Assembly (NCBI GenBank): GCA_023382715.1 | Contig: JAHDWP010000014.1 | Location: 1 to 64,000 of the forward strand | DNA length: 64,000 bases | DNA from: Anaerolineae bacterium | GTDB taxonomy: Bacteria > Chloroflexota > Anaerolineae > Aggregatilineales > Aggregatilineaceae | Direction of reading: 5' to 3' | Shown: in pieces, positions 36,796-46,694 of the stretch | How positions within the stretch are numbered: position 1 is the stretch's first letter | Layout of the letters: every line of letters starts with the position of its first letter | Made by a program: the position numbers and the translations under genes | Notes under the pieces: model-generated | The model's input: the letters and a program-made list of their open reading frames with translations, nothing else | Database searches by the model: none | What the model was told of the DNA's origin: nothing

Positions 36796-37584
36796 GTGAG
36801 CCAGATGTTTCGACAGAGCAACCGGGGAACGCTGGTCTGGCTGGTCATCGTGGGCGCTGCCCTGGGGTTGGTGCTGCTAGCTGGCGGCCTGCCGACCGGG
36901 GCGGGGGCGGCGCTGCTGCTGGCCTACCTGGGGCTGCTGGCCGCTGTGACGAGCAGCGCCGACCTGGGCAGGGCGCTGAACCAGGTCCTGCGGCGCGGGC
37001 GCACGCGCCCGGAACCCAGCGAGGTGGCGCGCGAGGCGGCTGCGCGGGCGCGCAGCCTGCCCAACTACGACACGCTGTACCGCCTGCTGGACATCGGGCT
37101 GATCGTGGACGAGCAGCGTCCCGACGGCATGGCCCTGCGACGCGGGCGCTTCGTCTCACTGGACGACGACGGCCTGCGCCCCTTTGCCATCATTGATGTG
37201 CCCGATACGCTGGGCAGCGGATTGGCCCTGGTGCGCTTCGAGCTGCGCGACAGCACAGGGCGCCCGTGCTACGTCCACGAGGCGGAGCGCTGGCTGCAAT
37301 CTGGCGAGAACGTCCTGGTGCCGGACTATCGTTTCCCGGTGCGCAAGCGCGCGGCAGACCTGGAATCCGGGGGATGGATGGCCCAGGTGAGCATAGACGG
37401 GGGTGCGCTGGGCATCTATCACTTCAACCTGTCGGAGTCGCTGGCAGAGCTGCGGCGGCAGGTGGGGCCAGATGGTGAGTTGCTGCGCGACCGCGTCTGG
37501 CGCAGCAACGATGATGATGAGTCGCTGCCGCTCAGCCTGGAGGAGCTGCTGCGCGCCCAGAGTCGCCAGCAGCGATCGTCGTAA
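36796..37584 (+). CDS. Two-helix membrane protein, paralogue 1, upstream of the E2/JAB/E1 genes
   Basis: The 262-residue protein has two hydrophobic helices near its N-terminus (about 13-33 and 36-58) and a soluble domain (about 90-240). The soluble part is beta-rich: IIDVPDTLGSGLALVRFELRD, then ENVLVPDYRFPV, then WMAQVSIDGGALGIYHFNLSES. The next gene has the same layout with similar order of motifs, so the two are tandem paralogues. No catalytic residues are recognised. The start is GTG at 36796; ATG at 36805 is possible. An extended -10 (TGGTACGAT, 36774-36782) sits 14 bases ahead. It may belong to the same transcription unit as the ubiquitin-like genes. Confidence 0.6.
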   Translation: MSQMFRQSNRGTLVWLVIVGAALGLVLLAGGLPTGAGAALLLAYLGLLAAVTSSADLGRALNQVLRRGRTRPEPSEVAREAAARARSLPNYDTLYRLLDIGLIVDEQRPDGMALRRGRFVSLDDDGLRPFAIIDVPDTLGSGLALVRFELRDSTGRPCYVHEAERWLQSGENVLVPDYRFPVRKRAADLESGGWMAQVSIDGGALGIYHFNLSESLAELRRQVGPDGELLRDRVWRSNDDDESLPLSLEELLRAQSRQQRSS

Positions 37585-37607: not shown

Positions 37608-38282
37608 ATGCATATGCTGGAGCCGCTCGTCCTGATCGTCTTTCTGGCGATTTTCGCCGCTTTCCTGCTGGCAGCGTTCTCGTCTGCGGGGGGGCAGGCG
37701 CGCGCCGCGACGCCGCAGCGCGCGCCACGCCCGATGGCGGCGATTGGGCCGCGCTCGCCGGCAGCCCAACAGGCGGCGCAGCGCGCCGGCTACGACGGCG
37801 GGCCGGATTACGTGAACGTGACGGACATTGGGCTGCTGGCCTATCGGGGCATGGACGAGCCGCGCCTGGTACGCACTGGCAAGGTGCTGACGGACACCGA
37901 CTATCTGCGGCCTTTTGCCGAGCTATGGCTGCCCCACGAAGCGCGCGGCAAGATTCGCTTCGAGTTGCTGGATGCGGAGGGCCGTCTGCGCTACGCCGAC
38001 GACGCGCGCTACGATCTGGGCGCGGGCCGCAACACGCTCCTGCCGGGCACCTGGCTCCCGCTGCGCGGCAAGTCCAGCCCGCCGGGCGAGTGGACGCTGC
38101 GCCTGGCCGCTGGCGACCTGTTGCTGGCGGCGCACCGGTTCGGCTGGGAGACGGTGGGCGCTGGCGAGATCAAGCGCTATATGGCCAGCGATGGCGAGAT
38201 TTCGCCGGAGCTGCAGCGGGCGCTGGAAGCGCAGCCGGTGGAGAGCCTCAGCCTGTCGGAATTGCTGGGGCAGGGGCACTAG
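37608..38282 (+). CDS. Membrane protein, paralogue 2, upstream of the E2/JAB/E1 genes
   Basis: This 224-residue protein has one N-terminal helix (about 5-26), an Ala/Arg/Pro-rich spacer and a beta-rich domain with VTDIGLLAYRG, DTDYLRPFAELWLPHE, KIRFELLDAEGRLRY, NTLLPGTWLPL, and WTLRLAAGDLLLAAHRFGWE. The paralogue 24 bases upstream has DIGLIVDE, LRPFAIIDVP, VRFELRDSTGRPCY and LVPDYRFPV in the same order. The domain looks like an Ig-type sandwich on the outer side. The C-terminal VESLSLSELLGQG is also shared (LPLSLEELL). Function unknown; 219 bases separate it from the E2-like gene. Confidence 0.6.
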   Translation: MHMLEPLVLIVFLAIFAAFLLAAFSSAGGQARAATPQRAPRPMAAIGPRSPAAQQAAQRAGYDGGPDYVNVTDIGLLAYRGMDEPRLVRTGKVLTDTDYLRPFAELWLPHEARGKIRFELLDAEGRLRYADDARYDLGAGRNTLLPGTWLPLRGKSSPPGEWTLRLAAGDLLLAAHRFGWETVGAGEIKRYMASDGEISPELQRALEAQPVESLSLSELLGQGH

Positions 38283-38501: not shown

Positions 38502-38981
38502 ATGAGCACCATGCCCTGGTGGGGCACCCGCAGCCAGGTTTCCGCCCGGCTGCGGCTGGAAGTGGAGATGATGCGCGCGACCTTCGCCGACACCTTCCGG
38601 CTGATCGTGCCGCAGCGTGGCGACCTGTACTGGATCGGCGATGTCGAGATCAATTTGCGGGGAATCCCGGAGCGACTGCACACCCTGAAGATCGTATACA
38701 TCGAGGGATACCCGAACCGCCCCGCCGAAGCCTATGTGTTGAAGCCGGTCGTCTACAGTGAGAAGCACCAGTTCCAGGACGGGCAGCTTTGCCTGTTCAA
38801 CCCCAGAGATGGCATCACTTACGGCTGGAACCCTTCCACTTCGACGGCGGTGACGGTCGCTGGCTGGGCCATCCAGTGGCTTTACGCCTATTACACCTGG
38901 CGGGCGACGGGGACATGGCCGGGCGTTGAAGAAGCGCTGCGCCCGACGAAGGACACCGGTTACCAGAGGAGAAGACGATGA
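38502..38981 (+). CDS. Bacterial E2-like (ubiquitin-conjugating-fold) protein
   Basis: The 159-residue protein matches the bacterial E2 pattern. After beta strands (YWIGDVEIN, HTLKIVYIEG) comes YPNRPAEAYVLKP (the YPxxPP region), then EKHQFQDGQLCLF with a conserved His89 and candidate catalytic Cys97, then YGWNPSTSTAV and the C-terminal helix WLYAYYTWRATGTWPG. In bacterial E2s the cysteine of the LCLF motif carries the ubiquitin-like modifier as a thioester. Its stop overlaps the JAB gene start (ATGA). It is the first of the coupled E2-JAB-E1 genes. No modifier gene is evident beside it. ATG at 38511 is an alternative start. Confidence 0.8.
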   Translation: MSTMPWWGTRSQVSARLRLEVEMMRATFADTFRLIVPQRGDLYWIGDVEINLRGIPERLHTLKIVYIEGYPNRPAEAYVLKPVVYSEKHQFQDGQLCLFNPRDGITYGWNPSTSTAVTVAGWAIQWLYAYYTWRATGTWPGVEEALRPTKDTGYQRRRR

Positions 38982-40057
38982 CGGCTGAACCACTGCCCGA
39001 AGGGGCGCGCGACCTGCCGCGCGTGGTCATCGCCGAGCGGGTGATAGACAAGATCGTGCGCGGTGCCTTGCTCTACCCGGAGCCGGAGACCGGCGAAGCG
39101 ATGGTGGGTCTGGTCGTCCCGCAGGCCGGCAAGGCAGAACCGGACATTTATGTGCTGGATACGATCAGCCCCGGCCAGCAGGCCGTGCGCGAGTGGGGCA
39201 AGTTCGAGCAGGGCGACGACTGGCAAGGCGACGTGTTTCACTGGCTGCACGTCAACTGGGAAGCGTTCCGCGAGATGCGACGCACGTCGTATGGCAGCGC
39301 CCTGGCCGCCAAGTGGGATGCGCCGCTGCGCCACGTGGGCGACTGGCACAAACAGCCAGACAACATGATCGCGCCTTCGGGCGGCGATGCCGAGACCGCC
39401 CGCAGCATGATCGCCGATGCCGAGACGCATGTCGAGCACATTGTCGCGCCCATCGTCACCATGTATCCGCTCCAGCCCGCAGCCGAGACGAGCGCTGAGA
39501 GCGGCGAAGCGGACGGTCCGGCGGCGGCTGAGGAAGCGCCTCCGGAGACGCCGCAGAGCATTATTCGCCGCTGCCCCGACGAGGGCTGGCTGGTGCGCAT
39601 TGACTTCTGGTACATGAGCAAGCGCACGCCGCGCTTCGTCGCGGCGACGCCGACGCTGTGGCCGGACGACCGGCTGCCAGGGCTGCCGCCGCTGGCCTGG
39701 CACCTGGCTCACCCGCGCCGCTTCGAGCAGGAATTCGGCCTGCTGCGCGAAGCCGGGTACGTGGCCGACGTGGTGCGCTGGGATGCCGACGGCAAGCCGC
39801 CCTATGAAGTGTGCTTCTCTGTGTACCGCGAAGGGGCCAGCCAGGTGATCATCCTGGTCACCGGCGCAGACTACCCGGCGGCGATGCCCGCCGTGCGCGT
39901 GGCGCCGCTGGTCGCTGTGGAAGAGGGCGAGGACGTCTTCGAGCGGCTGTATGCGGCTTCGCGCCCGCTGCTGCTGACTGAGCTGCCCGACTGGACGTGG
40001 GATTCGAAACGGACGCTTGTTGAACTCGTATGGTATGTCGAGAAGACAGTGCCATGA
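38978..40057 (+). CDS. JAB/MPN metalloprotease-like protein with C-terminal E2/RWD-like domain
   Basis: The 359-residue protein has an N-terminal JAB domain (about 15-150): ETGEAMVGLVV with the active-site Glu40 region, and GDWHKQPDNMIAPSGGD, the JAMM signature with His124, Ser134 and Asp137. The second histidine of the usual HxH is Gln126. An acidic Ala/Glu linker (about 165-190) leads to a second domain. Its end (REGASQVIILVTGADYPAAMP, then PDWTWDSKRTLVELVWYVEK) has the strand-YP-P-helix plan of E2/RWD folds without a catalytic Cys. JAB proteins in such operons process or remove ubiquitin-like tags. The E1 gene starts 26 bases after the stop. Confidence 0.8.
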   Translation: MTAEPLPEGARDLPRVVIAERVIDKIVRGALLYPEPETGEAMVGLVVPQAGKAEPDIYVLDTISPGQQAVREWGKFEQGDDWQGDVFHWLHVNWEAFREMRRTSYGSALAAKWDAPLRHVGDWHKQPDNMIAPSGGDAETARSMIADAETHVEHIVAPIVTMYPLQPAAETSAESGEADGPAAAEEAPPETPQSIIRRCPDEGWLVRIDFWYMSKRTPRFVAATPTLWPDDRLPGLPPLAWHLAHPRRFEQEFGLLREAGYVADVVRWDADGKPPYEVCFSVYREGASQVIILVTGADYPAAMPAVRVAPLVAVEEGEDVFERLYAASRPLLLTELPDWTWDSKRTLVELVWYVEKTVP

Positions 40058-40082
40058 TCGTCGGCCAATGGGACGGTGCGCG

Positions 40083-40997
40083 ATGACGGGTTGGGATCGG
40101 ATGGCGCGGCTGTTCGGCGCGGATGTGCTGGCTTATCTGGGTACGCGCACGGCAGGCGTGGTGGGCTTGGGGTCGGGCGGCAGTTTCGTCGCCGTGAGCC
40201 TGGCCATGAGCGGCGTCGGGCGTTTCATCCTGGTGGACGACGACCTGCTGGAGCCAGTCAATGTGGTTCGTCATGCCGCCGACCTGCGCGATGTCGGGCG
40301 TCCTAAAGTGGACGTGGTGGCCGATCTCGTCCGCCAGCGCAACCCCGCCGCCGACGTGCGCACGGTGATCGGGCGTATCGAAGACCATCTCGATCTTCTC
40401 GCCGAGATGGACGTTGTCGTGGCGGGCGTGGACCGTGAGCAGCCCAAATTCGCCATCAACCAGGCGTGCCTGAAGCACGGGCGGGCGGCGGTCTATGCCG
40501 GAGTCTACGAGCGCGGCGAAGGCGGCGACGTGTGCATTATTTACCCGAACAAGGGGCCGTGCTACGCCTGCTGGGCCGAGCGGCTGCGCGAAGGGTTGTC
40601 GCACCCGGCAGAAGAGGGCGAGCTGGATTATGGCATGATCGGGCCGGACGGCACCTTGGCTGCCGAGCCGGGGCTGTGGCTACACGTGGTGCGCGTGGCG
40701 GCGATCCAGGCCGACCTGGCGCTCAATTACCTGCTGACAGATACCCCGGCGCACCGGGCGCTGCCGGCCAATACGATCATTCAGGCGAACACGCACCTGG
40801 AAATCTACGAGGGCAAAGTGGCCCTGCCTCATACGGCAGAGTGGGTGAGCGTTCCGCGCAATCCGCGATGCCTGGTCTGCGGCAGCCAGCAGCGGCTCAG
40901 CACCGCAGAGTGGGCGGCGCTCTCGCTCGACGACCTGATCAGCATGGGGAATATCACGCTCGAAACGGACGAGAATACGAGCGCACACGAAGGGTAA
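40083..40997 (+). CDS. ThiF/E1-like activating enzyme
   Basis: This 304-residue protein is an E1-superfamily adenylating enzyme. VGLGSGGSFVAVSL is the nucleotide loop (about 27-40), LVDDDLLEPVNVVRH holds the conserved Asp, Asn60 and Arg63, RPKVDVV carries the conserved Lys75, and VVVAGVD holds Asp117. Two CxxC pairs, C160/C163 and C263/C266, form the structural zinc site seen in ThiF/MoeB. It would adenylate the C-terminal glycine of a modifier protein. It follows the JAB gene with GGACGG before ATG 40083. Together with the E2-like and JAB genes it makes a compact ubiquitin-like operon; the 99-residue protein follows 5 bases later. Confidence 0.88.
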   Translation: MTGWDRMARLFGADVLAYLGTRTAGVVGLGSGGSFVAVSLAMSGVGRFILVDDDLLEPVNVVRHAADLRDVGRPKVDVVADLVRQRNPAADVRTVIGRIEDHLDLLAEMDVVVAGVDREQPKFAINQACLKHGRAAVYAGVYERGEGGDVCIIYPNKGPCYACWAERLREGLSHPAEEGELDYGMIGPDGTLAAEPGLWLHVVRVAAIQADLALNYLLTDTPAHRALPANTIIQANTHLEIYEGKVALPHTAEWVSVPRNPRCLVCGSQQRLSTAEWAALSLDDLISMGNITLETDENTSAHEG

Positions 40998-41002
40998 GCA
41001 TA

Positions 41003-41302
41003 ATGTCCGATCACGATAACGCACTTCCTCCGGCGGACGAGGTCCCGCCCGCTGTGTCACCGCCCGGCGTGGGCGACGACTCAGGCCCGCCGCAGGACAA
41101 GACTCCACCGGAAGACCTGGGCCCGCGCCTGGAACGGCTGGGCGGCGAGCCGGCGCCGGACATCACCCCGGACGAGTTCGCCCGGCTGCAACAGGCTGGC
41201 CAGATTCACATTGACCCGCGCGGACGGGTGCGGACGACCGCGCGCGATGAGCTGGACGCGGGCATCTCGCTGCGCAAGCGCCGCGCCTGGTATGGCCGAT
41301 GA
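41003..41302 (+). CDS. Small acidic/Pro-rich protein in the E1/E2/JAB operon
   Basis: The 99-residue protein is not recognised. Its first 50 residues are disordered, rich in Pro, Asp and Gly. The second half, DITPDEFARLQQAGQIHIDP and then GRVRTTARDELDAG, may form a short helix-strand unit, and it ends with a basic tail (LRKRRAWYGR). It does not end in Gly-Gly, so it is not an obvious ubiquitin-like modifier unless processed. Start ATG 41003 has AAGGG upstream. Its stop overlaps the Nudix ATG (ATGA). It could be a target or adaptor of the system; this is only a guess from position. Confidence 0.6.
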   Translation: MSDHDNALPPADEVPPAVSPPGVGDDSGPPQDKTPPEDLGPRLERLGGEPAPDITPDEFARLQQAGQIHIDPRGRVRTTARDELDAGISLRKRRAWYGR

Positions 41303-41931
41303 TCCCGGCGCTCGCTCTGGAGCAGGTCCGCGCGGCGCTCGCCCTGGCGGATTTCGACAGCGAGGGCGCACAGCGGCGGATGGCTCCCCGGCCCCGCGTC
41401 ATGCAGCGGGGCAACGGGCGAACCGGGCTGCCGCGCCAGGCCAGCGTGCTCGTGCTGCTGTACCCCTCCCCTGGGGGGTTGGCGTTCGCCCTGGAGCTGC
41501 GCGCGGCCAATGACCGCGATGTGCACAGCGGGCAGATCGGCCTGCCAGGCGGTGCGCGTGAAGGCGACGAGTCACCGCTCGACACAGCGCTGCGCGAGGC
41601 CCGCGAGGAGATGGGGATCAGCGCGCCGGTGACAATTCTGGGCCGGCTGAGGAAGCTCTACATCCCCCCCAGTGATTTCGATGTGCACCCGTTTGTGGGC
41701 TACGTCGCCCCGCAGCCGGCCTGGCAGCCCGACGCCTCCGAAGTCGTCCAGGTGATTGATTGCCCGCTGGCCTGGCTGCTCGACGACGCGCGCAAGCGGG
41801 GTGAGGAGTGGGACGTGCACGGCGTCACGATGTTCGTCCCCTGGTACGACGTTTATGGCCACAAGGTCTGGGGTGCGACGGCGATCATCCTCAGCGAATT
41901 GGAGCAGCGCCTGCGCGTCGTGCTCGAATAG
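41299..41931 (+). CDS. Nudix hydrolase, CoA pyrophosphatase type
   Basis: The 210-residue protein contains a full Nudix box, GGAREGDESPLDTALREAREEMG (two parts: GGAREGDE and REAREEMG hold the metal-binding Glu residues), preceded by SGQIGLPGG, the signature of the CoA pyrophosphatase (NudL/UPF0035) group. VSVLVLLYPS-like and FDVHPFVGYV strands fit that family. It would cleave CoA or similar nucleoside diphosphate derivatives. Its start overlaps the small protein gene, so it is co-translated with the E2/JAB/E1 operon, though it may be an unrelated passenger. A perfect palindrome 35 bases downstream may end the operon. Confidence 0.85.
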   Translation: MIPALALEQVRAALALADFDSEGAQRRMAPRPRVMQRGNGRTGLPRQASVLVLLYPSPGGLAFALELRAANDRDVHSGQIGLPGGAREGDESPLDTALREAREEMGISAPVTILGRLRKLYIPPSDFDVHPFVGYVAPQPAWQPDASEVVQVIDCPLAWLLDDARKRGEEWDVHGVTMFVPWYDVYGHKVWGATAIILSELEQRLRVVLE

Positions 41932-42076: not shown

Positions 42077-42162
42077 GCATTAGAAAAATCTAACGATGTC
42101 TAGCGATGCCGGTCGGCGTGCTTGATCTTGCTCTGTGTATCTGGCCAGAGGGTGCCCGCATT

Positions 42163-42849
42163 ATGGCTGAGAAGATACTCGTGATTGACGATGAGAAGAT
42201 GACCGTTGACCTCATCGGCATTCTCCTGGAGCGGCGCGGCTTCGAGGTAGTGAAGGCGTGCAGCGCCGAAGAGGGCCTGCGCGCGGCCTATCGCACCCAT
42301 CCCGATCTCATCCTGCTGGACATCATGATGCCGGATATGGACGGGTGGGAAGTCTGTCGCCGCCTGCGCGAGCTGTCGGACGTGCCGATTCTGTTCCTGA
42401 CCGCCAAAGACGACACGCGCGATCTCGTGCGCGGGCTGGACCTGGGCGCGGACGATTACATTACCAAGCCCTACGACAATGACGCCCTGATTGCCCGGAT
42501 CAAGGCACACCTGCGGCGCGTGCCCAAGCCAGTTGTGTCTGAGGAGCTGGTCTTCGACGGCGGCAATGTGCGCATCAACTTCATCAGCCGCGAAGTGCGC
42601 GTGCGCGGCAAGCCTGTGCACCTGACGCCGAAGGAGTTCAACCTGCTTGGCGTCCTGGCGCGCAACGCCGGGCGCGTGCTGGATCGCACGGAGCTGGTGC
42701 GCGAGGCGTGGGGGCCGGAGTACGGCGACGCGATTGACAGCCTGAAGCTGTATATTCACTATCTGCGCCAGAAGATCGAGAAGGACCCGCAGCAGCCCGG
42801 CTACATCCTGACATCGCGCGGGGTGGGCTACCGCTTCAACGACGTGTGA
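42163..42849 (+). CDS. OmpR/PhoB-family response regulator
   Basis: The 228-residue protein has an intact receiver: VIDDE acidic pair, LILLDIMMPDMDGWE with the phosphoacceptor Asp, LFLTAK (Thr) and ITKPY (Lys). The C-terminal winged-helix domain shows HLTPKEFNLLGVLARNAGRV, LVREAWG, DSLKLYIHYLRQKIE and ILTSRGVGYRF. It is a DNA-binding transcription regulator activated by phosphorylation. No sensor kinase gene adjoins it, so its partner is elsewhere. GAGGGTG lies 11 bases upstream of ATG 42163. It is divergent in function from the degenerate regulator at 35390. Confidence 0.93.
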   Translation: MAEKILVIDDEKMTVDLIGILLERRGFEVVKACSAEEGLRAAYRTHPDLILLDIMMPDMDGWEVCRRLRELSDVPILFLTAKDDTRDLVRGLDLGADDYITKPYDNDALIARIKAHLRRVPKPVVSEELVFDGGNVRINFISREVRVRGKPVHLTPKEFNLLGVLARNAGRVLDRTELVREAWGPEYGDAIDSLKLYIHYLRQKIEKDPQQPGYILTSRGVGYRFNDV

Positions 42850-42864
42850 GCCTGTTGTGCGCTG

Positions 42865-43272
42865 TCACAGGCGCAGGGCGATGATCGCCAGCGAAATGGC
42901 TGCCGCAACCAGCAGGATGAGCACAGCGCGGAACAGCCTGCGCCGACGCGACAGCCGCTTGTGGGGCGGCGCTGCTGCTGGCAGCGCGTGCTGAAGCTGC
43001 TGCTCGGCGAGCAGGGCAAGCTGCTGCCGTGCGGTGGGGTGCGACGGGTTCAGCGCGAGCACATTCTCGAAACACACGCGGCGGTCGTCATCGGAGTCCA
43101 CGACGCTCGCCAGCCACAGCCAGACCTGCTCGTGATAAGGATCCACCTCGACGGCGCGGCGGAAAAGTTCGTGCGCTCTGGCCCGGTCGCCGCGCTTGGC
43201 CGCTTCCTTCCCTTCCTTGAAAAACTGCAAGAATTCTTTAGGCGCATTCAAAAGATCGGACGAAATGCCCAT
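42865..43272 (-). CDS. Small TPR-like membrane-anchored protein
   Basis: The 135-residue protein has an N-terminal TPR-like unit: GKEAAKRGDRARAHELFRRA, then VDPYHEQVWLWLASVV, then RRVCFENVLALNPSHPTARQQL. A basic stretch (KRLSRRRRLF) and a C-terminal helix (about 115-133) follow. The W-L-W-L-A and ALNP motifs are shared with the three next minus-strand genes, so the four are paralogues. Start at 43272 follows GGGGGGAA. It likely sits on the inner membrane as an adaptor. An extended -10 (TGATACAAT, 43330-43322) lies upstream. Confidence 0.7.
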   Translation of the reverse strand: MGISSDLLNAPKEFLQFFKEGKEAAKRGDRARAHELFRRAVEVDPYHEQVWLWLASVVDSDDDRRVCFENVLALNPSHPTARQQLALLAEQQLQHALPAAAPPHKRLSRRRRLFRAVLILLVAAAISLAIIALRL

Positions 43273-43341
43273 CGCGTTCCCCCCTGGTGATGGCGCACTA
43301 CGTGGCCATGCGGCTGCCCCCATTGTATCACGTCCGCGCGC

Positions 43342-44841
43342 CTAATGGCCCCAGTCGTTGGCTATGTCGGTATGCGGCGCGGAAGTGACCTGGTAGAGCG
43401 TCTCGGTCTCCATCTCGTAGACGAACACATCCCAGTTGCCGGTGCGGTCGGACGAAAAGACGATGAAGCGCCCGTCCGGCGAAAAACGCGGCTGGATATC
43501 GTCGGCGTCGGAGGTGATGAGCGGCTCCGGAGCGCCGCCTGCCGCCGGGATGCGGTAGATATCGGCGGTTTTGCTTCCGGCTGCGACGGCGTGGAAGACG
43601 ATGGTCTCGCCGTCGGGCGACCAGTCCGGGGCGGCCTCGGTGAGGGAAGCGCCATTGGTGGTCAGGGTGACAACCTGCCGGGTGGCCAGGTCGAGGATGC
43701 GCAGATCGGTTGCCCCGCCCGGAGCGATCAGGCTCAGGTCAGCGACGTAGACGAGGCGCGTGCCATCGGGGGAATAGGCCGGCCAGCTTTCGCCGGCGTC
43801 GTCCTGGGTCAGACGCTCCAACTGGGCCGGGTCGCCCTGCCGATCTACGACAGCCACGCGGAAGAGGTCGGTCGTCGCCGCGCCCAGCCCTTGCGCCGTG
43901 AAGGCGATCCACTGGCCATCGGGCGACCAGGCGGGCGCTTCTTGCTTCTGAAGCGTCGGATTGCCCGTCCAGTAGCTGCTCGCCAGGCGAGAATCGGTGC
44001 CCTGCAGGTTGTCAAGCTGCAGGAAGAACTCGCGCGTGCCCGGCGCGTAACGAATGTAGGCGAACTGGCTCCCGTCGGGCGAGAGGGCGGGCGTGTGACC
44101 GCGCGTGTTCGGGGGCGTGATCGTGCGCGGGCTGCTGCCGTCCGGCCTGATCAGGACGATCGGCTGGTTGTTGGGATCGCCGGGCGTCTGTCCGGAGCGC
44201 ATGAGGATATGGCCGGCCAGGGCGGCGGGCGGCGGCGGGAAGAGCGTCGGCGGTATCTCCGGGATAGGGGTCTTGCTGGGCACCGGCGTCCAGGTCGCGG
44301 GCGGGGGCGTGAACGTGCGCGTCGGCTGAGTCGTGGCGGTGGGGAGCGGCATCGTTCCAGGAGCGGACGGACTGTTTCCTTCTGCTGGCTTCAGGCCAGC
44401 GCCTGCGCCACCGTCTGCGACAGGCGGGGGCGCAGACCCGTCATCGCCACCGCCCAGCGCGATCACCAGCAGGATCACCAGGAGCAGCGCGCTCAGGATG
44501 ATCGCCCCCAGCACCAGGTTTTGACCTGTGCGCCCTTTCATAGAACCGGGCTGCCCGGCGGGCGCAGCCGATTCGGGCGACGCACCTTCCAGGCGGGCCA
44601 GCAAGCTCTGCGCGCGCGCATTGTCGGGATTGATGACAATGACGTTGCTGAGACAGATGCGCTTCTCGTGCAGATCGTCGGTGACCGCGGCCAGCCAGAA
44701 CCAGCCCTTTTCATGCTGCGGGTCAAGCGCCACGACCTGTTCGAGCAAGGCCCGTGCGACGGCCGTGTTGCCCGCGCGCGCCGCGTCAATGCCCTGCCGC
44801 AGAAGATCGTCAAGCTGGGAACCGGGTTCCTGCCCGCTCAT
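43342..44841 (-). CDS. TPR-anchor protein with TolB-like beta-propeller
   Basis: The 499-residue protein starts with the TPR-like unit (GIDAARAGNTAVARALLEQV, ALDPQHEKGWFWLAAV, RICLSNVIVINPDNARAQ), a transmembrane helix (about 107-128), a Pro/Thr linker, and from about 210 on a propeller of WD40/TolB-like (PD40) blades. These are marked by repeated SPDG motifs: ALSPDGSQFAYI, WSPDGQWIAFT, YSPDGTRLVYV, WSPDGETIVFH and FSPDGRFIVFSSDR. The propeller is outside the membrane by topology. GGGGGGC precedes the start. Likely a surface or periplasmic binding protein; ligand unknown. Confidence 0.78.
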   Translation of the reverse strand: MSGQEPGSQLDDLLRQGIDAARAGNTAVARALLEQVVALDPQHEKGWFWLAAVTDDLHEKRICLSNVIVINPDNARAQSLLARLEGASPESAAPAGQPGSMKGRTGQNLVLGAIILSALLLVILLVIALGGGDDGSAPPPVADGGAGAGLKPAEGNSPSAPGTMPLPTATTQPTRTFTPPPATWTPVPSKTPIPEIPPTLFPPPPAALAGHILMRSGQTPGDPNNQPIVLIRPDGSSPRTITPPNTRGHTPALSPDGSQFAYIRYAPGTREFFLQLDNLQGTDSRLASSYWTGNPTLQKQEAPAWSPDGQWIAFTAQGLGAATTDLFRVAVVDRQGDPAQLERLTQDDAGESWPAYSPDGTRLVYVADLSLIAPGGATDLRILDLATRQVVTLTTNGASLTEAAPDWSPDGETIVFHAVAAGSKTADIYRIPAAGGAPEPLITSDADDIQPRFSPDGRFIVFSSDRTGNWDVFVYEMETETLYQVTSAPHTDIANDWGH

Positions 44842-44865
44842 AATGCCCCCCCTGTACGGTCGTCT

Positions 44866-46401
44866 TTATTGACTTGCCGGATGCCACGTCACGTAACGTG
44901 TATCGCCGTCGCTGGAGAGAATGCGCTGAAGCTCACTTCCATCTGGACGGACGACGTACAGATCGAATATCGAGCGCTCGCGGTTGGAGCTGAACGCGAT
45001 CCAGCGGCCATCCGGCGACCACGCGGGATCGCGCTCCTCGGCGCGCACGTCAGCGACCAGCAGGCCGCGCTCGCCGTCGCCGTTGGCCGTCATCAGGTAA
45101 AGATCGGTGGCTCCCCGCCGGTCGGAAAGAAACACGATAGCCGACCCGTCGGGCGACCAGGCCGCTGAGAAGCTGCTGTTGACGTTGTCTGTGAGCTGCT
45201 TCAGCGCGCCGCTGTCCACGTTTATGCGCCAGATCTCGGTCGCGCCAGGGCCGCTGCGGTCGGAGGTGAAGGCGATCCACTGGCCATCGGGCGACCAGGC
45301 CGGCTCGCGGTCTTCGGACTGGCCAGGGGTGAGCGTCTCAACAGCGCCTGTCTCGACGGAGACGAGGAAGAGGTCGAAGATGCCGTCCGGGTTGGCTGCG
45401 CAGGCGATGGTCTGCCCATCCGGTGACCAGGCGGCGTCCGCCACGCGGGGCGCGGCGAATGTCGTCAGACGGCGCATGGTGCCCCCGCCGGATGGCGCGA
45501 CGAACAGGTCCTCGAACTCCTCGCTGACCAGCACCTCGCCTTCCAGTCGTGACTGCGACAGGCGGGCCGTGAACGCAATCTGCTTGCCGTCCGGTGAATA
45601 AGCCGCGTCGTAGACTTCCACCAGACTCAATACAGTGCTGGAATCGGGCGGCAGCGTGAAGGTCAGCGCCCTTTCGCTGGAGCCGTCGGCGGTCAGCGTA
45701 TGCAGCGCCCAACCGCGCCCGCCGCGCAGCGCCGAGACCAGCATCGTATAGTCAGACAGCGGCGGCGGTGTGGGCGACGGCAGGGGGGTCGGTGAGGGCG
45801 TCCAGGTGGCGGTTGGCGTCCAGGTGGGCGGGAATGTCTCGCGCGGGGGCAGCGTGCGCAGCGCGCCGCCGACCGGCGTCGGCGAGACATAGCCCCCTGC
45901 CTGGATGGCGGCGGACTGGGTGGGGCGTTGTGATGTGGGCGGGGGAGGTGGGGCGTCGCCGTCTTTTTGCATGTCGAGGTACAGCAGAGTCAGGCCAGCG
46001 GCCACCAGCCCCAGCGCGATCAGGGCGAGCGTCCAGAATACCCAGGGAGGAAGACCGCGTCTCCGTCGGGGTGCGCTGAGCAATGCACCCCGCTCGGCGG
46101 TCGCGAGTGGGGCGGAACGGCGCGCCTGTGTTCTGGAGGGAGTGACCCGTAGCTGCTGTTCCAGACGCCCCAGCGCCTGGCGGGCGCGCTCATTGCGCGG
46201 GTTGATGGTCAGCACGCGGCGCAGACTTTGCAGGCGCTCTTCATCGGAGTCTGCGACGGTGACCAGCCAGAGCCAGGCCGTCTCGTTATCGGGGTCCTGC
46301 GCGATGACCCGGTGCAGAGTCGCGCGCGCGGCACCCCGATCGCCACTGCGCGCGGCCTCGATGGCGGTGCGCAGCAAGGTTGAGATATCGTCGTTGAGCA
46401 A
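44866..46401 (-). CDS. TPR-anchor protein with TolB-like beta-propeller, second copy
   Basis: The 511-residue protein has the same plan as its neighbour: TPR-like unit (IEAARSGDRGAARATLHRV, AWLWLVTV, SLRRVLTINPRNERARQ), Arg-rich stretch, helix (about 118-140), Thr/Pro linker, and six or more PD40 blades (YSPDGKQIAFT, WSPDGQTIACA, WSPDGQWIAFTSDR, WSPDGSAIVFLSDR, WSPDGRWIAFSSNR). The start was set at TTG 46401, with GGAGAGGG just ahead, because the alignment with the paralogues begins there; a longer frame to 46473 has no site. The two propellers differ enough to bind different partners. Confidence 0.75.
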   Translation of the reverse strand: MLNDDISTLLRTAIEAARSGDRGAARATLHRVIAQDPDNETAWLWLVTVADSDEERLQSLRRVLTINPRNERARQALGRLEQQLRVTPSRTQARRSAPLATAERGALLSAPRRRRGLPPWVFWTLALIALGLVAAGLTLLYLDMQKDGDAPPPPPTSQRPTQSAAIQAGGYVSPTPVGGALRTLPPRETFPPTWTPTATWTPSPTPLPSPTPPPLSDYTMLVSALRGGRGWALHTLTADGSSERALTFTLPPDSSTVLSLVEVYDAAYSPDGKQIAFTARLSQSRLEGEVLVSEEFEDLFVAPSGGGTMRRLTTFAAPRVADAAWSPDGQTIACAANPDGIFDLFLVSVETGAVETLTPGQSEDREPAWSPDGQWIAFTSDRSGPGATEIWRINVDSGALKQLTDNVNSSFSAAWSPDGSAIVFLSDRRGATDLYLMTANGDGERGLLVADVRAEERDPAWSPDGRWIAFSSNRERSIFDLYVVRPDGSELQRILSSDGDTRYVTWHPASQ

Positions 46402-46694
46402 CGTCCCTCTCCCTCGCGCAGCCAGTCGCTGCGCAATGGCGGGCAACTCGATCGTCCCGCGCGTGCCATGCATTCGCCGCCTGCCCGTTTGGGATGTGGG
46501 CAGAGGGGGTGCGGCGGCAACCCATCATTACCTGTAATCTTATCCTGGTCTGGTGCGCAAGGCTAGGCAGGGGGCGCCGGGCGGGGGCGATGCTCACTGG
46601 GCACGGAGGATGCAGAGGGGGCTATGGAAGAGACCGACCCGGAGCCTTTCTCGCTGGCGCTCCAGAAGGACGCGGATCAGGAGAGATGCCCGGC

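Follow-up and report, generated by a model that had tools for sequence, protein, structure and literature searches.

Which protein is handled by a bacterial operon that encodes an E2, a JAB protein and an E1, and no recognisable modifier? This question was raised by a stretch of 64,000 nucleotides from an Anaerolineae bacterium (contig JAHDWP010000014.1, positions 1 to 64,000 of the forward strand), called the window throughout this paper. On its plus strand, where all window features described here lie, genes for an E2, a JAB protein, an E1/ThiF enzyme, a protein of 99 residues and a Nudix hydrolase are tightly packed, with E2, JAB and E1 in one operon. The original prediction, made from the sequence letters, had described the first three as a ubiquitin-like operon without a Gly-Gly modifier and without a CD-NTase, and this description is supported by the present analysis. 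At about even chances, in our judgement, the enzymes serve one Anaerolineae order as a housekeeping pathway for ubiquitin-like conjugation or processing, whose dedicated client would be the small protein encoded at 41003-41302, engaged via its C-terminus. The order in question is probably Aggregatilineales, within Anaerolineae.

The module is core and vertically inherited in one order

Of the 154 genomes of the order, 137 gave a match for the JAB protein and 135 for the E2; among the 90 genomes of good quality, each of the two was present in 87. The three good genomes lacking JAB and E2 all belong to a single family, f8, and the module was absent throughout the families f4, f5 and f8. Only 7 of 400 genomes drawn from the phylum yielded E2 matches, and two of these 7 lay inside the order. 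When a tree was built from the E2, JAB and E1 sequences joined together, each of five families came out as monophyletic, with the minimum of 4 label changes. Because the module is near-universal in the order, is absent at the level of families and has a tree that follows taxonomy, it was regarded as resident and vertically inherited; it is core in the order and almost absent elsewhere in the phylum. The gene order E2-JAB-E1 was constant in 40 loci from the five families wherever the contig was complete, and in most of them the small gene came next.

The E1/E2/JAB operon types of Iyer et al. (2006; PMC1779556) were all described as sporadic. The co-occurrence of E2, JAB and E1 in relatives, on which the original prediction had staked its case, was seen throughout the order. 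Its hint at phage defence was not supported, as the module is near-universal and vertical in the order and defence versions are patchy. A brief look at distant E2 matches elsewhere in the phylum (L076-L080) showed one, L077, which has an E1-like gene beside it and has the look of a patchy system.

Active sites of the three enzymes

All three genes were confirmed where they had originally been placed, and the residues quoted for them were right: His89 and Cys97 in the E2, WHKQPx(6)PSGGD in the JAB protein, and GLGSGG, Asn60, Arg63, Lys75 and the CxxC pairs 160/163 and 263/266 in the E1. Chance is far from sufficient to account for the matches described below. The window's E2, JAB and small protein had no Pfam match of their own, so that profiles of their relatives were needed. 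The E2 (159 residues; 38502..38981) matched the PADLOC E2 profiles (1.7e-15). With a profile of 24 E2 relatives, UBC enzymes were matched in the PDB at 2.5e-5 to 1e-3, among them human UBE2L3 (in the range of 5e-5); the best match was a UBE2L3-derived chain (2.5e-5). His89 and Cys97 were invariant (40/40 relatives). The UBC identity of the E2, for which a fold prediction had been suggested as the check, is supported at the level of sequence profiles.

The JAB/JAMM gene (359 residues; 38978..40057) overlaps the E2 gene by 4 nt, and its product matched the PADLOC JAB profiles (5e-6). For the MPN domain AlphaFold2 gave a pLDDT of 87, and the model resembled BRCC36 (Z 15.1) and Rpn11 (Z 14.4). Glu37, His124, Ser134 and Asp137 were present in 39/39 relatives. 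Residue 126 (39353-39355) is Gln in the window, which turns the canonical HxH into HxQ: the second metal-ligand His is replaced by Gln in 33/39 relatives and retained in 6/39, the His form being found in family f7 and in one f6 member. The C-terminal domain (residues about 236-359; 39683..40054), when folded alone with AlphaFold2 (pLDDT 93.4), was predicted to have a UEV-like fold, with a Z of 9.7 over 106 residues to the UEV of Tsg101. The Tsg101 UEV was also on top in Foldseek, at an E-value of 0.2 or worse, and one single JAB member matched Pfam UQ_con (0.009). A profile relationship of this domain to the operon E2 or to the JAB N-domain was not detected by hhalign. As the Foldseek E-values were weak, the UQ_con match single and hhalign negative, the UEV identity rests on the predicted fold.

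The E1 (304 residues; 40083..40997) matched Pfam ThiF (3.5e-33) and the PADLOC E1-E2 profile (1.8e-26). Its reading frame is open from 40017, and ATG40083 agrees with the start used in the family. The adenylation site is intact, with GLGSGG, Asn60, Arg63, Lys75 and Asp117 invariant or nearly so (Arg63 and Asp117 in 40/40 relatives, Lys75 in 39/40). The usual thioester-site cysteine is missing: no cysteine was found at the MoeB/UBA4-type position, as judged by eye against MoeB, and the two CxxC pairs apart, the relatives share no invariant cysteine, Cys129 being conserved in 32/40. Against the PDB, the E1 profile scored UBA5, MccB, ThiF and MoeB about equally (MccB 1.5e-19). MccB adenylates the C-terminus of a peptide.

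A small disordered protein as conserved fourth component

The 99-residue neighbour of the E1 (41003..41302) had been proposed as a candidate partner, and it is indeed a conserved fourth component which co-occurs with JAB. The small protein was found in 135 of the 154 genomes of the order. Both proteins were present in 132 genomes and neither in 14, while JAB occurred alone in 5 and the small gene alone in 3. The latter three genomes are drafts with a completeness of 80% or less, and in two of the five JAB-only genomes (G099, G115) the position expected for the small gene from the spacing in the genus lies at or beyond the contig end. The small gene was kept although unlinked from the E1, either on another contig or 12-150 kb away.

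The N-terminus of the protein is variable and disorder-prone in composition, rich in proline and acidic residues (Pro 18%, Glu 12%, Asp 10%). The C-terminal region reads GGEPAPDIT..SLRKRRAWY and contains a conserved EPAP with invariant A51 and P52. Its end is near-invariant, SLRKRRAWY being followed by a short tail of 0-6 variable residues, and is not Gly-Gly. An internal Gly-Gly processing site (LGGEPAP) was rejected, since several relatives have SGE or AGE at this place.

Downstream, the small gene overlaps by 4 nt a gene for a CoA-pyrophosphatase-like Nudix hydrolase (41299..41931), a frequent neighbour of the cluster. The recurrent neighbours across the 40 loci were the membrane proteins described below, the disordered small protein, a protein-L-isoaspartate methyltransferase (PIMT; PF01135, 1.8e-48) and the Nudix hydrolase. 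The PIMT gene is inserted between the small gene and the Nudix gene in many f2 and f6 loci (L038, L040, L046 and others). Where the small gene is unlinked from the E1, it keeps the Nudix gene and often the PIMT gene as neighbours. Further 3' of the cluster, at 42106-46473, a response regulator and TPR/TolB-like repeat proteins are encoded in the window's family and mostly not elsewhere in the order.

Short motifs shared with toxins, phage scaffolds and membrane proteins

The 30 C-terminal residues of the small protein are found again in an RHS-core protein (L183:3937-5070), directly before a papain-fold-like toxin domain, with a genome-wide E-value of 1.4e-6; the toxin domain itself matched Tox-PL-2 at 0.18, short of its cut-off. 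In a second RHS cassette (L184:2934-3575) the motif precedes a domain that by eye is GIY-YIG-like (6.2e-4), with the RHS core in another frame. Two phage head scaffolding proteins, which belong to different PHROG families, have a similar motif close to their N-terminus (L186:6201-6917, 0.003; L194:7113-7796, minus strand). The wider motif search from which L194 came used a profile containing three of these four sequences. All four were rescored with a profile built from small proteins only in a genome-sized search space, which gave 1e-6, 4.5e-5, 0.014 and 0.055 for L183, L184, L186 and L194, respectively. By these scores the phage cases are the weaker ones. Recurrence before toxins and in scaffolds is what a recognition or cleavage site would lead one to expect. 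That the motif copies derive from att sites was considered unlikely in view of their differing codons and flanks. No claim is made for the motif match in L185, which is antisense of another gene, for L193, which is weak, or for L195-L199, which were unsupported or marginal with the small-protein-only profile. L193 (minus strand) is a reading frame of 2600 residues in G001, which may encode a mobile-element protein. Viral collections contained no relatives of the E2, of the small-protein motif or of the scaffold proteins.

Upstream of the E2 the window encodes two paralogous membrane proteins. Protein A (36796..37584) has a GTG start, a hydrophobic, presumably transmembrane N-terminal stretch, a domain that is beta-rich by eye and the C-terminus SLEELL, and gave no match in a Pfam scan; protein B (37608..38282) ends in SLSELL. 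Homologues are located 5' of the E2 in the families f1, f2, f3 and f7. A SLxELL-type motif was present at the C-terminus of 37/38 upstream membrane proteins and of 29/39 operon E1s (SLDDL in the window), compared to 1-3/492 other neighbour genes. As the two membrane proteins are paralogues, the independent point is the sharing with the E1. The envelope link suggested in the original prediction gains support from this short C-terminal motif.

Search for a modifier or a proteasome partner

The operon was found to contain no beta-grasp gene, and no ubiquitin-like gene recurs among the neighbours in the 40 loci. The genome of the window contains three ThiS/MoaD-like genes. Such genes occurred in 152/154 genomes, with or without the trio, and none was detected in the trio-bearing G009, an 86%-complete draft. 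YukD-like genes were patchy (10/31 genomes). Homologues of the Pup ligase (PafA/Dop, PF03136) were found in 4/31 genomes and are absent from the genome of the window; they are patchy in the relatives G006, G008, G010 and G137, and the contig concerned in G137 also carries a YukD-like gene. No dedicated modifier of the ThiS/MoaD, YukD or Pup type tracks the trio, other beta-grasp families lying outside this search. Likewise, no nucleotidyltransferase was present among the recurrent neighbour clusters of the 40 loci or among the seven scanned genes of the window, genes seen once not being examined. A link to a 20S proteasome was rejected, as PF00227 is absent from the genome and the family of the window, its matches being confined to two genera. 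PF00227 also matches in HslV-bearing controls such as E. coli.

Favoured reading and rival explanations

The gene order, the predicted folds of the JAB protein, the conservation of the active sites, the co-inheritance of the four parts and their vertical descent were observed; what the substrate is, in which direction and by which chemistry each step runs, and what the motifs do, we infer from these. In the favoured pathway, the JAB-UEV protein would dock the small protein and trim or deconjugate it at SLRKRRAWY. The E1 would adenylate the C-terminus of the small protein, and Cys97 of the E2 would receive the acyl group straight from the adenylate, a direct transfer proposed because the E1 is without the usual thioester cysteine. 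The E2 would then hand the acyl group to targets, some of them at the membrane, with SLxELL as a putative docking motif common to the upstream membrane proteins and the E1. Several observations weigh against this pathway. The peptidase activity of the JAB protein is uncertain, because Gln replaces the second metal-binding His in most relatives. Where the gene cluster is split, the small gene goes with PIMT and Nudix and not with the E1. The toxin and phage proteins with the motif are few. Moreover, a beta-grasp fold cannot be recognised in the small protein, which does not end in Gly either, and the tail after AWY varies in length, so that a precise C-terminal chemistry is not evident.

A bolder form of the same reading, which we hold as a tentative possibility, makes the small disordered protein itself the modifier. 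It would be a beta-grasp-free tag with the C-terminus SLRKRRAWY, activated by an E1 without thioester cysteine, conjugated by the E2 and processed by JAB-UEV as order-wide housekeeping, and phages and RHS toxins would copy the C-terminus of the tag to be handled by the same machinery. The main rival explanation places the gene of the modifier, a beta-grasp protein, elsewhere in the genome and gives the small protein the part of an adaptor, a scaffold or a first substrate, recruiting E1, E2 or JAB via its C-terminal motif. Every E1/E2/JAB pathway characterised so far works with a beta-grasp modifier or with the C-terminus of a CD-NTase (PMC1779556, PMC10097602), and ThiS/MoaD-like candidates are at hand in the genome of the window. 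An adaptor role would also agree with the conserved EPAP, as the Tsg101 UEV binds short proline motifs according to structure titles. However, the ThiS/MoaD-like genes are equally common without the trio and went undetected in G009, YukD is patchy, and the operon offered no beta-grasp gene, within the families searched; we consider this rival rather unlikely.

Three further explanations were weighed. The E1 might chemically modify the C-terminus of the small protein in the manner of MccB, with E2 and JAB-UEV acting as carrier and hydrolase in a non-conjugative pathway. The high rank of MccB in the PDB sequence matches of the E1, the missing thioester cysteine and the short partner of disorder-prone composition speak for such a modification, but ThiF, MoeB and UBA5 score about the same, and an invariant E2 with intact His and Cys argues for acyl transfer to another protein, which makes the MccB-like route improbable. 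A role in anti-phage defence, as in Bil or type II CBASS, appears still more improbable. It would share the enzyme set, the E2-JAB-E1 order is the same as in BilB-C-D, distant E2 relatives on plasmids adjoin nucleotidyltransferases, and two phage scaffold proteins carry the motif. Nevertheless, 87 of 90 good genomes possess the module, absences mainly concern whole families, the tree follows taxonomy, neither a CD-NTase nor a beta-grasp gene recurs alongside, and no orthologue was found in viral contigs. Finally, an E1 of MoeB/ThiF type with Zn-CxxC could serve sulfur transfer or tRNA thiolation; given that a rhodanese domain and an operon-borne ThiS/MoaD are lacking and that the invariant E2 is unused by sulfur pathways, this explanation is highly improbable.

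The favoured housekeeping pathway would matter for several reasons. Known bacterial E1/E2/JAB systems are sporadic and mostly defence-linked, and a core, order-wide version would amount to a ubiquitin-like pathway resident in bacteria, with a bearing on how ubiquitin signalling turned into a housekeeping process. An unfolded client without a beta-grasp domain, if this is what the enzymes handle, would be an exception to the rule by which beta-grasp proteins or CD-NTase tails are the cargo of E1/E2 cascades. With the small gene, a direct, testable handle on the pathway is at hand, and the motif copies in toxins and phage scaffolds suggest exploitation by rivals and parasites of these bacteria.

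Comparison with known systems

With Bil (BilABCD, bacterial ISG15-like) the module shares separate E2, JAB and E1 genes in the same order and a JAB protein expected to process the C-terminus of its partner. In contrast to Bil, the catalytic E2 cysteine is accompanied by no tandem ubiquitin-like BilA in the operon, a small disordered partner standing in its place. The MPN fold is present, but the JAMM motif HxHx7SxxD is replaced by the HxQ form in 33/39 relatives, the JAB protein carries a UEV domain, and the E1 thioester cysteine, a feature of Bil, is missing. The sporadic distribution of defence systems was not observed either, the module being core. To type II CBASS the relation is one of domains, E1, E2 and JAB being homologous to Cap2 (E1-E2) and Cap3 (JAB); Cap2 is an E1-E2 fusion, whereas E1 and E2 are separate, vertically inherited genes here.

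Bub (bacterial ubiquitination-like) combines a UEV/RWD-like protein with JAB and E1, and one chain of the BubCD-BubB structure from Citrobacter (9eae_C) is similar to the JAB C-domain, at a Z of 7.6. Compared with Bub, the UEV is fused to JAB here and an active-type E2 is present; a JAB-E1 fusion and a BubA-type ubiquitin-like protein were not found, JAB and E1 being separate in the loci examined. The types 6a-6e (Iyer et al., 2006; PMC1779556) likewise unite E1-like, E2-like and JAB proteins in one operon. However, in types 6a-6c the E1 is fused to E2 or JAB, and types 6d/6e carry a ubiquitin-like gene (PMC1779556). The small disordered protein with a conserved C-terminus beside its enzymes recalls Pup, but a PafA/Dop-type ligase is absent from the genome of the window and the enzymes are E1 and E2. 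Because defining features of each were looked for and not found, the module belongs to none of Bil, CBASS, Bub and Pup as they are defined; in outline, it would work like Bil, CBASS and Bub.

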